A DNA stretch of 7,215 bases from a bacterium (GTDB lineage Bacteria; CSSED10-310; JAJRTK01), in contig JAJRTK010000344.1 of assembly GCA_024278345.1 (NCBI GenBank), positions 1 to 7,215 on the forward strand, written 5' to 3'. Positions 629 to 4,804 of the stretch are shown here, piece after piece (position 1 is the stretch's first letter; the number at the start of each line of letters is the position of its first letter). The translations under genes were made by a program, and so were the position numbers. The notes under the pieces were generated by a model. The model had not been told where the DNA came from. It did no database searches and saw only the letters and a program-made list of their open reading frames with translations.

Positions 629-2617
629 TCAGTGGACCGGCTTCTTCGACGGCTGTTCCCAAAGTTCTCTTGGGCGCTTACGTCCGAAGCCCGGCTTGCG
701 CCGCGGAGCCGCTGCCGGCCTGGTGGCGGCCTTCACAGCGGTCTCCCGGATCATCTTCTGGTAGCGCTCCACTTGGAGCCGGTTCCATTCCTGGAAGTCC
801 GGCTCCCCGTTGCGCCGGATCAAGAGGTCCGTGTAGACGCCATGCCGCGTCAACGCCAGGCTCCCCTTGACCTGGTGGAGCGTCGCCAGCGCCACTGCCA
901 AGGGATCGCTTTCCGGAAGGCCCCGTGGGCTTTTCGAATCTTCCAATGTCCCATGAAGAGAACAACTTGCCCTCCTTCCCTCCAACCGGTAGACGCCCCC
1001 GTCGGGACATCTCACGGGCCCCAGGGCACGCATTCCACCCGTCAACGTCGCCAGCCGCTTGTCGCGGCCATCCAGCGCTCCCGCCTTCGCGATCCCCTCG
1101 AGGGCTTCCAGGCGGGCAAGGTTTCTGCGGCAGCGGGCACGGTGGCGCGCCTCCGCCTGGACCAGGATCTCGTCCCTGAGGAAGGATGCCCGGCGAAAAT
1201 CGACGCCGAAGAAAGTGTTGGCAATCGTGGGATCTTGCTTCCCGTCCGCCACGGCCCGCCGCGCTACATCGAGTTCCCGTTCCCGGTCCACCAGGCGTTG
1301 CACCAAGGCCAGGGCGTTCTGTTCGCCGCGCTCCTCTTCCGTCCCGGCTTTCGGCTCTCCGGCGCCATCCAACCCACGCCGGGAAGACGTCTGCACCATG
1401 AAGAGCCTCTCCTCTGTCAGAACGAAGAGGGGCGCTCCTGCAGCCCCCGATGCCGGGACACACAGGAGCCGGATCCCCTCCGGCAACCCTGCCTCCCGGA
1501 TGGACCAGATCTCCCTGTCCTGCATGCCCACCAGCCGCCGGAAAAATGTCGCGGCCAGCGGCGCATCCCGAACCTCCAGGCGGGCGTACGGCACGGCCGG
1601 AGCCCCATTCTCTCCACCCACCGGCGGGATCACCAGGAAATTCACCTCGCTGCCCACCCAGTCCAGCGGTCCGGCAGTCTTCAAGTCCCAGCCAAGGCTG
1701 ATCGACAGGGCCGCCAGCCATAACCGCATGGAGGACTGCCTAGTGCCGCTCCCCTCCCTGGCGAGCCCCTTCAAACTCAAATCCATGACAGCCATCGACG
1801 CCATCACCCCCGCCGAGGGCAGCATCGCTTCCCCGCCAGCCAACGCTCTCGGCGATCCAGGGCTCCACGACGAAATCCCCAAACCCCTCGAGCCCGGCCG
1901 AGGAAGCACGTAAGTCGAGAAACGCAAAGACGGCTCCAACGACACCTCGATGCCCACGGGATCAAGAAGCCTGGACCAGAATCCCCCCCTGAACTTCCGC
2001 GCGAACTGCTCGTAAGCACGCTTCTCCAAAATGGAAATCCCCGCCACTGGCGTCTTCGACAGAACCGCAGGGCGCTTCCGCCTCCCGTGATGCCCGCACC
2101 GAAAAACCGAGGCACCGCCGTCGAAAACATACCGCCCACGATGAGGACAGACTGGCCGGTAGGCCAGGTAACCCGCCGCCTCCAACGACTCCAACGAACG
2201 CAAATCCTTCCCTTCCATCCTCGACAAATCCACGGCCGAGTCCAGCATCGACAGGTTCTTCATGCAACGGTCCCGCCGCAGCACCGCAATCCGAAAACCA
2301 GGAGAAATCAAGCGCTTGTAAAACTCGCTGGAAACGAAAAGAAAACCGTCACCCCCGGGAAGAAGCGAACGCATCGCCAACAACTCCTTCTCCTCTTTCA
2401 AAGAGCGCCTACGACCTCCACCAGCATCCAACACCTGCTCCAACGACGCCAGGCTGTTGGAAAACAACCGGTACCTCCCCACCACCGCACGATACACCAA
2501 ACCGTCCATCCCCAAATCCACCACCTCGATGGAAACCCCCTCCCACTCCACCCGGTCCACCCCCCCCACCGGCCCCAGAAGACCGCCGAGCCTCGTCCCA
2601 CGCTGCCAACGCATCAT
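629..2617 (-). CDS. 3' part of split lipoprotein; two pilin-like Cys motifs
   Basis: A 662-residue frame ending at TGA 629-631. It has no signal peptide of its own and no convincing ribosome binding site before ATG 2617. It reads as the continuation of the lipoprotein frame that begins at 3377. Residues about 20-65 (GVDRVEWEG ... FSNSLASLEQVL) resemble DUF3352-like repeat proteins, from memory of such families. Two copies of a pilin-type segment are visible. Copy one has C118-x2-NL, then CPHRGRY (157-163) and C174-GHHG. Copy two has C496-x2-NL, then CPDGGVY (537-543) and C552-SLHG. The same motif series occurs in type II pseudopilin-like proteins of PVC bacteria, but here without a pilin N-terminal helix. 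Residues 330-415 form a second beta-rich module resembling the first, and the C-terminus is basic and Pro/Arg-rich. The function is unknown; an envelope or periplasmic role is inferred. As a separate ORF its true start is doubtful. Confidence 0.7.
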   Translation of the reverse strand: MMRWQRGTRLGGLLGPVGGVDRVEWEGVSIEVVDLGMDGLVYRAVVGRYRLFSNSLASLEQVLDAGGGRRRSLKEEKELLAMRSLLPGGDGFLFVSSEFYKRLISPGFRIAVLRRDRCMKNLSMLDSAVDLSRMEGKDLRSLESLEAAGYLAYRPVCPHRGRYVFDGGASVFRCGHHGRRKRPAVLSKTPVAGISILEKRAYEQFARKFRGGFWSRLLDPVGIEVSLEPSLRFSTYVLPRPGSRGLGISSWSPGSPRALAGGEAMLPSAGVMASMAVMDLSLKGLAREGSGTRQSSMRLWLAALSISLGWDLKTAGPLDWVGSEVNFLVIPPVGGENGAPAVPYARLEVRDAPLAATFFRRLVGMQDREIWSIREAGLPEGIRLLCVPASGAAGAPLFVLTEERLFMVQTSSRRGLDGAGEPKAGTEEERGEQNALALVQRLVDRERELDVARRAVADGKQDPTIANTFFGVDFRRASFLRDEILVQAEARHRARCRRNLARLEALEGIAKAGALDGRDKRLATLTGGMRALGPVRCPDGGVYRLEGRRASCSLHGTLEDSKSPRGLPESDPLAVALATLHQVKGSLALTRHGVYTDLLIRRNGEPDFQEWNRLQVERYQKMIRETAVKAATRPAAAPRRKPGFGRKRPRELWEQPSKKPVH

Positions 2618-3377
2618 CCAGCCGCCCCGGATCCAACACCTCCAGGATCAGCGTCAACTCCGGAGCAACCGACAAATAAGGGTCATCCAGAACCAGAACC
2701 AGGCTCCCCACGGCCTCCCGGTAGACCGCCCGCGACTCCTCATCACTCTCCAACCCCAACTTCTGCCCCAGCGAAAACGGCGTTCCATCCAAATGGAGAA
2801 AATCCGACAGCCGGCCCACGCTCCCCTGCCACAGACTCACGTCATCCGCCAGGCGAAGGGCTGCCGAAGCCTTCCTGAACCCCAAGTAAAGCGAGTCCAC
2901 AGGGCAAAAAAACACCGCCGGCAACTCCGGCCCCACCCCGGAACCTTGCACCAACTCCACCGAACCAAGCTCCGGACCCCGAAGACGATCCACCGACTCA
3001 CTCCACCGAACATCCCGAGCCCGCTCACCCTCCATGAGCACTTCGTCCAGCCCAAGCGTCGCCTCGACCGCCGACAACCCGCTGATCGACAACAGCTCGC
3101 CAAGGATCCACGTCCCTCCTCCTCCCGTTGCAGCTTCCGGAGCACGAGGCACCCGGATCCCCCGCCGATGCGCCGCCAGCGCCACGTAATAGGGCCAAAA
3201 ACCATCCGTTTCACCAGGCTCCAGCAACCCTGCCAATTCCCGCACCGAACCCCGAAACCCCGCCCCATCCCCCGAGCCCAACGCACCACCTCCCGCCGAC
3301 TTCGTGGAACACGCCGCCAGACAAATCATTACGGCGACACCACGCCAACCAACACGTCCCCATCTCAAACCACCCAT
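2409..3377 (-). CDS. 5' part of split lipoprotein (signal peptide and lipobox)
   Basis: A 322-residue frame. The start at ATG 3377 is supported by GGAGG (3384-3388, minus strand) with a 6-base spacer. The N-terminus has basic residues (R5, R8, R12), a hydrophobic stretch GVAVMICLAAC, and a lipobox LAAC with Cys23, so an exported lipid-anchored protein is expected. Residues about 45-263 look like an ordinary globular protein (for example LTLILEVLDPGRLDDALAAWDEAR at 241-264). After residue 264 the text turns into Gly-rich low complexity, which is what reading out of frame gives. The frame that continues the protein is that of the overlapping 2617-629 ORF. The switch falls near the eight-base homopolymer at 2560-2567. 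With seven bases there, the two parts join into one 915-residue protein. I do not recognise a named family for the N-terminal part. Confidence 0.75.
   Translation of the reverse strand: MGGLRWGRVGWRGVAVMICLAACSTKSAGGGALGSGDGAGFRGSVRELAGLLEPGETDGFWPYYVALAAHRRGIRVPRAPEAATGGGGTWILGELLSISGLSAVEATLGLDEVLMEGERARDVRWSESVDRLRGPELGSVELVQGSGVGPELPAVFFCPVDSLYLGFRKASAALRLADDVSLWQGSVGRLSDFLHLDGTPFSLGQKLGLESDEESRAVYREAVGSLVLVLDDPYLSVAPELTLILEVLDPGRLDDALAAWDEARRSSGAGGGGGPGGVGGGFHRGGGFGDGRFGVSCGGGEVPVVFQQPGVVGAGVGCWWRS
2560..2567. repeat. Eight-base C/G homopolymer at the frameshift
   Basis: C8 on the plus strand, read as G8 in the minus-strand lipoprotein gene, directly after the GGT codon for Gly270. With eight bases the upstream frame goes into Gly-rich text and stops at 2409. 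With seven bases it enters the downstream frame as GGVDRVEWEG and continues to 629. Candidate causes are a sequencing or assembly indel, a real frameshift mutation, or phase-variable or transcriptional slippage. Confidence 0.7.
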
Positions 3378-3796: not shown

Positions 3797-4804
3797 ATGC
3801 ACCACCCCCCAAAGAGTAACCATCAGAGTTACCCCCCCGAGAGCTCACCGGAACCTACCCACGCCTCCCCAGGAACCCGGCAGCCTCTCCGCCTGTCCGG
3901 GCTGGAGATCGCCGGGTACTGCCTGCATCTCTTGGTCCCGGCCCTGGCCGTGCCAATGCTAGGGATCCTCCTGGCCCGCGCCTGGAGGCTTTCTCCCGAT
4001 CCAAGAGCGCTCTTCCTGGGCGGGATGGGGACCGGCGCGGTCTACCTCCTGGACCGCCTCCTGGAGCCACCAGCCCCATCCCCAGAAGCCGCGCCGCCAG
4101 GATGGAATACGAGCCAGCCTTCGGGGGAAAGGGAGATCGCGCCGCCAGGATGGAATACGAGCCAGCCTTCGGGGGAAAGGGAGATCGAGTCCGCGGAGTG
4201 GCGCCAGCCTAACGATCCGGCTTCCAGGAGGTATCTCCCCGCGGGCCTCCGAAGGATCTCCTGGTGCCTCGCAGCCGGGTTCTCCTTTGCCGCTTTCTGT
4301 CTCGCCATCTCCAGCTTCTGGCGCTCATGGAAGGCGTACCTGGTCATGGGGGCGAGCCTGGGCCTTCATCGCGCGACGAAGGCTTGGCCCGCGGGGAAGA
4401 CCTTGCCCGTGGCTCTTTGTTGGACCGTGGGCGCGGTGGTTCTGCCCTTTCCCGGAGTTTCGGGCCGCTGGGAACTGTTGTGGCGCCCGGCCTCGCTGGC
4501 GGTCTTTCTCCTGGTGGCTGCCGGTTGTCTTCTCTGCGACTGCAAGGATCTGGAGCGGGATGCCGCGTCGGGAAAAAGGAACCTCTCGGTCCTCTTGGGC
4601 TTTCGCCGGACGCTCCTCTTGGCGGAGGGCCTCGCCATGGCCGCGCTGCCTTTGGCCTGGTTGGGGAGCGCCCCGCTTCTGTCGGTGACGATCCTCGGCT
4701 ACCTCGGGCTCTACTTCTGGCCAGCCGGCCTGGCCGACGGGTTCTGGGGCGCCCTGCTCACCGACGCTTTCCTGGCACTGCCGGGACTGATCGCTTGGGG
4801 GTAA
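3797..4804 (+). CDS. UbiA-like prenyltransferase-family membrane protein
   Basis: 335 residues from ATG 3797 to stop 4804. Several hydrophobic segments fit the UbiA fold: about 38-61, 71-88, 153-174, 180-192, 203-218, 231-247, 272-289 and 294-334. The second Asp-rich motif of the superfamily is clear: D248-x2-D251-x3-D255, then SGKRNLSVLLG, which matches the usual DxxxDxxxGxxTLxVxxG. The first motif (NDxxDxxxD) is reduced to YLLDRLLE (83-90), so classic isoprenoid transferase activity is doubtful. Such UbiA-like proteins are, to my knowledge, uncharacterised. Directly after it come two identical 16-residue repeats (99-114 and 115-130), an insertion in the cytosolic loop. The start is uncertain: ATG 3659 (in frame) and ATG 3956 (inside TM1) are alternatives, and no strong ribosome binding site marks 3797. 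The N-terminal 35 residues are Pro/Ser-rich. Confidence 0.7.
   Translation: MHHPPKSNHQSYPPESSPEPTHASPGTRQPLRLSGLEIAGYCLHLLVPALAVPMLGILLARAWRLSPDPRALFLGGMGTGAVYLLDRLLEPPAPSPEAAPPGWNTSQPSGEREIAPPGWNTSQPSGEREIESAEWRQPNDPASRRYLPAGLRRISWCLAAGFSFAAFCLAISSFWRSWKAYLVMGASLGLHRATKAWPAGKTLPVALCWTVGAVVLPFPGVSGRWELLWRPASLAVFLLVAAGCLLCDCKDLERDAASGKRNLSVLLGFRRTLLLAEGLAMAALPLAWLGSAPLLSVTILGYLGLYFWPAGLADGFWGALLTDAFLALPGLIAWG
4091..4186 (+). repeat. Perfect 2 x 48-bp in-frame tandem duplication
   Basis: Units 4091-4138 and 4139-4186 are identical over 48 bp, starting GCGCCGCCAGGATGG and ending GGGAGATC. Each encodes the 16 residues APPGWNTSQPSGEREI within the loop between the second and third membrane segments of the UbiA-like protein. 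Identity at the DNA level points to recent duplication or active expansion. The length keeps the reading frame. Confidence 0.95.

Follow-up and report, generated by a model that had tools for sequence, protein, structure and literature searches.

Has a pilin-type fold been reused, and doubled, in a protein of another kind? The question is raised by a minus-strand gene in a bacterial stretch of 7,215 nucleotides (hereafter the window), which is the whole of contig C274 in a draft genome of 6.06 Mb and 550 contigs. A preliminary description of this DNA, made from its letters, pointed to two pilin-like cysteine motif segments within one lipoprotein and suggested that a pilin fold had been put to a new use there. 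Profile comparisons and the predicted structure of the first copy support this proposal, and we consider the two segments to be, very probably, homologous copies of the globular domain of GspG/PilJ-like type IV pilins.

The gene and its two motif segments

The gene is read in two overlapping ORFs that are the two halves of a single gene (Table 1). ORF 1 is collinear with related proteins until it reaches a run of eight G residues, and ORF 2, which carries both motif segments, contains no internal stop. Skipping one G of the run joins the ORFs into a protein of 915 residues, collinear with its relatives; the joined protein of the preliminary description is thereby reproduced. It begins with MGGLRWGRVGWRGVAVMICLAACS, a type II signal peptide whose lipobox LAAC places the predicted lipidation cysteine at residue 23, so that from its translation the product is a predicted lipid-anchored extracytoplasmic protein. 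No class III prepilin signal is present at this N-terminus, and the Pfam and NCBIfam scans gave no N_methyl match to the protein, in agreement with the earlier remark that the modules come without an N-terminal pilin helix. Neither NCBIfam nor Rfam returned any match for the window, and the protein has no Pfam match above cut-off (a single sub-threshold Rieske score is considered below).

Table 1. Positions of the lipoprotein gene and its parts in the window
Feature	Position	Strand	Basis or remark
ORF 1 (322 aa)	2409..3377	minus	N-terminal part of the lipoprotein, up to the frameshift; collinear with relatives until the G8 run
Lipoprotein signal peptide, lipobox LAAC (Cys23)	3309..3377	minus	read from the translation
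G8 run (C8 on the plus strand)	2560-2567	minus	site of the one-base frame shift
ORF 2 (662 aa)	629..2617	minus	C-terminal part of the lipoprotein, with both modules; no internal stops
DUF3352-like unit 1 (approximate)	2309..2705	minus	spans the frameshift; alignment to relatives that match Pfam DUF3352
Copy 1, modelled stretch	2057-2320	minus	ORF 2 residues 100-187
Pilin-type module copy 1, motif	2084-2266	minus	ORF 2 residues 118-178; profiles, structure model, shuffles
DUF3352-like unit 2 (approximate)	1172..2050	minus	alignment to relatives; Pfam finds nothing in this stretch
Pilin-type module copy 2, motif	950-1132	minus	ORF 2 residues 496-556; profiles, low-confidence full model

With its frameshift, the window gene may be an inactive or a misassembled copy. 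The same genome encodes a paralog (L009, on contig C324; 886 residues or more), 31% identical to the window protein over about 200 residues. This paralog is also frameshifted by one base, near position 1630 and close to its start, where the family sequence reads EKSNYLRL. That both two-module genes of the genome are frameshifted suggests either assembly error or decay of the two copies.

Two repeats were seen elsewhere in the window. A 31-bp unit (GCATCCTGCCGCTGGAAAAAGGGTGGCACCA) is present in about 6.6 copies at positions 3-202, and related arrays (63-93% identity) lie on at least six other contigs, several of them at contig ends; this is a dispersed repeat that probably breaks the assembly. 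A UbiA prenyltransferase-like gene contains, at positions 4090-4187, a 48-bp direct tandem repeat that is perfect and, with its 16 codons, keeps the frame.

The motif C-x2-NL-x2-L ... CPxxGxY ... C-x2-HG occurs twice in ORF 2, as the preliminary description had it, at residues 118-178 (CMKNLSMLDSAVDLSRMEGKDLRSLESLEAAGYLAYRPVCPHRGRYVFDGGASVFRCGHHG) and 496-556 (CRRNLARLEALEGIAKAGALDGRDKRLATLTGGMRALGPVRCPDGGVYRLEGRRASCSLHG), 378 residues apart. When the 662-residue ORF was shuffled 200,000 times, not even one instance of a loose version of the motif turned up. Both copies present the elements in the order of a Cys-type GspG/PilJ-like head, that is, a helix with C-x2-N, a hairpin with CPxGGxY and an end with CSxHG. 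Across 18 aligned modules, prepilins included, residues C9, C48, P49, G52, Y54 and C65 are invariant, and the histidine of CSxHG is present in most. An odd number of invariant cysteines combined with a nearly invariant histidine suggests, from the alignment, either a metal site or one disulfide with a free cysteine.

Pilin likeness in profiles and predicted structure

Are the two segments copies of one module, and is this module related to pilins? Their profiles align with each other with a probability of 97.9% and an E-value of 4e-13 in hhalign. We also built a profile from prepilins only (five proteins with an N-terminal pilin helix, from other genomes). It matches copy 1 at 98.3% (E-value 1.6e-14) over 69 columns, which is the whole module, and copy 2 at 97.0% (E-value 1.1e-10), against 0.1% for a reversed copy 1 used as control. 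These five prepilins had themselves been recovered with the copy-1 profile, so the independent tests are the comparison with PDB sequences and the structure prediction.

The copy-1 profile, built from the family only, found matches in 25 of 193 genomes at an E-value of 0.01 or below, and its reversed version found none in the same 193. Its matches include prepilins in which the motif directly follows the N-terminal pilin helix (L063, L064, L066, L067 and L081) and a GspG-like pseudopilin (L074). From the full set of PDB sequences, the combined profile retrieved only two matches, PilJ (E-value 0.002) and a pseudopilin of type II secretion (E-value 0.26); the copy-1 profile alone retrieved only this pseudopilin (E-value 1). 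The likeness to pilin C-terminal domains that the preliminary description proposed to look for by profile search was thus found, with negative reversed-profile controls. Its comparison with PVC pseudopilin-like proteins in particular was too narrow: the similarity is to the GspG/PilJ type, is met in several phyla and extends to many non-pilin architectures.

Structure prediction likewise returned a pilin fold. AlphaFold2 models copy 1 with confidence (pLDDT 89.8, pTM 0.78), as a helix (7-35), a short helix (43-49) and two strands (64-67 and 72-75). PilJ is its best Foldseek match, with a probability of 0.97 and a weak E-value (0.25) that reflects the small size of the domain. VIA Z-scores rank PilJ at 8.5, by itself a middling value, followed by PulG (7.8), PilA1 (6.2), PilE (5.6), XcpGHIJK (5.2) and XcpT (4.3); the next row after the pilins is an archaeal histone at 2.5, and unrelated folds score 2.5 or below. 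The model of the full 662 residues has a mean pLDDT of 40, too weak for structure searching; copy 2 appears in it with the same order of helix, helix and hairpin as copy 1. Given this low confidence, we trust a structure for copy 1 only, and the case for copy 2 is made by profiles and secondary structure. The globular pilin fold, a helix packed on antiparallel strands, is accordingly assigned to copy 1 by model and to copy 2 by profile only.

A two-module family

A search started from the paralog returned ten relatives with 52-60% identity, nearly all from Planctomycetota (Pirellulales, Stieleria, Rhodopirellula and Phycisphaerae); one is a Nealsonbacteria record. All ten have both modules with every cysteine kept, including one (L017) that ends at a contig end. 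An ORF with two modules was also seen in G104 (1506 aa, spacing 354) and in G142 (1144 aa), and two profile matches per ORF were found in G195, G263, G313, G337 and G373; in the phylum sampled with these genomes, 37 of 199 have a module match. By its sequence, the window protein is a divergent member of a widespread family of two-module proteins of 900-1500 residues. The duplicated module in a lipid-anchored protein, as first described, stands, and what does not stand is its being special to the window, since it belongs to a family conserved in Planctomycetota, in the paralog and elsewhere. The lipobox is not present in every planctomycetal relative.

In a tree of the modules, copy 1 of the window groups with copy 1 of the relatives and copy 2 with copy 2. 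Because the copies cluster by position, the doubling probably predates the split of these proteins; support for the deep nodes is low (the node of all copy-2 rows has 0.34, that of all copy-1 rows 0.78), and we take this modestly supported order as a hint. Two secreted single-module proteins of about 540 aa (L059 and L080) fit the doubling of one unit.

What was this unit? In the relatives, a match to DUF3352 (PF11832) directly precedes each module, in a similar part of the profile (roughly 126-215 of its 536 positions). Four of them (L010, L011, L013 and L018) match in both halves, each time weakly; in the whole-protein scan, L018 reaches 28.6 bits for a cut-off of 26.8, and most relatives remain below the cut-off. 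The window protein has no Pfam match to DUF3352, its second half included, and a direct profile comparison of its two halves was not significant (prob 1.2), with a plausible register. The similar beta-rich module said to precede each copy is thus supported mainly in the relatives, as DUF3352 twice, and is not recovered when the halves of the window protein are compared. What is repeated is most likely a DUF3352-like domain with a pilin-type module behind it, an assignment with moderate support. Our literature search, within which few subscription papers could be reached, yielded no paper naming DUF3352.

Pilin-like heads were observed in further arrangements in other genomes, and small lipoproteins and membrane proteins of other phyla also terminate in the module. 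In L060, L069 and L079, a transmembrane helix comes after an apparently cytoplasmic domain and passes directly into a GspG-like pilin head devoid of cysteines, as though the cytoplasmic domain had taken the place of the pilin leader; we take these domains to resemble DUF4388. Six membrane-anchored TPR-like proteins of about 280-315 aa (L062, L068, L070, L071, L073 and L078) end with a GspG-like pilin head. Two small proteins, L061 (1285-1701) and L075 (1342-1710), have a pilin-type module (with CPSGG in L061) behind an N-terminus that resembles a lipobox, and are perhaps a minimal lipid-anchored pilin head. A 1217-aa relative (L097, 4698-8351) seemingly contains another GspG-like stretch near its N-terminus (LDAVKTAMEMYAADNGTYPINISDVNAL), possibly a further pilin-type module.

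Alternative readings, function and known pilins

Could the resemblance to pilins be misleading? The window copy 1 reads C-x-H-x14-C-x2-H, close to the ligand pattern of Rieske proteins, and C48, H50, C65 and H68 are invariant among the copy 1 sequences of the family, so one may ask whether the segments hold a Rieske-type iron-sulfur cluster, or another cluster, and look like pilins only superficially. The Pfam Rieske model indeed gives window copy 1 an E-value of 0.0044, yet the score of 17.3 bits falls below the cut-off of 20.3. No other member matches, the first histidine is replaced by Asp, Glu, Ser or Ala in copy 2 and in the prepilins, and the fold matches list pilins and not one Rieske protein. 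We therefore rejected membership in the Rieske [2Fe-2S] group and regard this reading as the least probable of all. Hardly more probable is convergence, in which a cysteine-rich hairpin after a helix would have arisen twice without common descent from pilins. In favour of it are the small size of the module, about 70 residues, and the nature of its most conspicuous identities (Cys, Pro, Gly and Tyr); against it, the match runs over all 69 columns, helix and linker included, the order of elements is identical, and reversed profiles of the same composition find nothing.

We thus return to descent from a pilin head, and to what such a head may do in a lipoprotein. Each module corresponds to the second half of the long pilin helix, the short helix and the beta-hairpin with CPxGGxY and CSxHG, the hydrophobic N-terminal half of the helix being absent from both. 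The lipid-anchored extracytoplasmic protein probably contains two DUF3352-like units in tandem, each capped at its end by one module. With neither polymerising helix nor class III signal, ordinary entry into a pilus or pseudopilus is not expected. The modules may instead act outside the membrane as small, stable binding or structural domains held by the three cysteines and the histidine; we give such a non-polymerising extracytoplasmic role about an even chance. A different role, which we think unlikely, is that of pilin mimics that dock on a pseudopilus or type IV pilus, by capping or membrane tethering, and thereby regulate assembly or secretion. The whole sequence signature is common to the module and to real prepilins, and the 19 prepilin-type N-terminal matches in the window genome imply that filament machinery is present. 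However, no pilus or secretion gene adjoins the window gene, the paralog or the relatives, whose neighbourhoods are not conserved and suggest no functional link, and the Cys-type motif was found in none of 50 prepilin-like ORFs from sampled loci of the phylum, so that no partner pilin of the same subtype was seen.

A broader reading of the helix-free head, which we advance tentatively and hold somewhat less firmly than the non-polymerising role, is that of a general extracytoplasmic domain employed by many unrelated proteins, among them DUF3352 proteins, TPR-like proteins, DUF4388 membrane proteins and small lipoproteins; one large subfamily would have a Cys3His metal site in common with true pilins. 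Natural pilin heads that lack the membrane helix would allow a direct test of metal binding by the invariant Cys/His set. Through them, part of a so far uncharacterised family that is conserved in Planctomycetota gains its first fold assignment; they also imply that the CPxGGxY/CSxHG motif is by itself no marker of a pilin.

How does this compare with known pilins? Pilins that gain extra domains are known, and modular pilins have already been described (PMC6916266); the reverse, pilin heads duplicated in non-filament proteins, was not described in the literature that we searched. That search found no helix-free pilin domain and reached few subscription papers, which makes the absence weak evidence. 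The best match by both structure (Z 8.5) and sequence (E-value 0.002) is PilJ, a type IV pilin of Clostridioides difficile (PDB 4ixj) with a dual fold (PMC4471445). PilJ shares with the modules the cysteine in the helix and C-x-x-GG-x-Y, but as a filament pilin it has its first fold attached to a polymerising helix, which both window copies lack. The major pseudopilins of type II secretion, GspG, PulG and XcpT, share the helix, short helix and hairpin (Z 7.8 for PulG, 4.3 for XcpT), and in a pseudopilin of known structure (PDB 3g20) DPWGGDY is the aligned counterpart of CPxGGxY. The window modules differ from them in having Cys instead of Asp, no hydrophobic helix half and no class III signal, a signal that is invariable in pilins (PMC10191384). 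The modular pilins PilB and PilC of Streptococcus sanguinis likewise combine a pilin fold with foreign domains (PMC6916266, PMC10191384). These precedents, like PilJ, retain the pilin helix: in PilB and PilC, a foreign domain is grafted on a complete pilin, whereas in the window protein helix-free pilin heads sit inside a non-pilin. The fold is a known one; the domain architecture, in which a pilin head has been transferred to a lipoprotein and doubled, is new.
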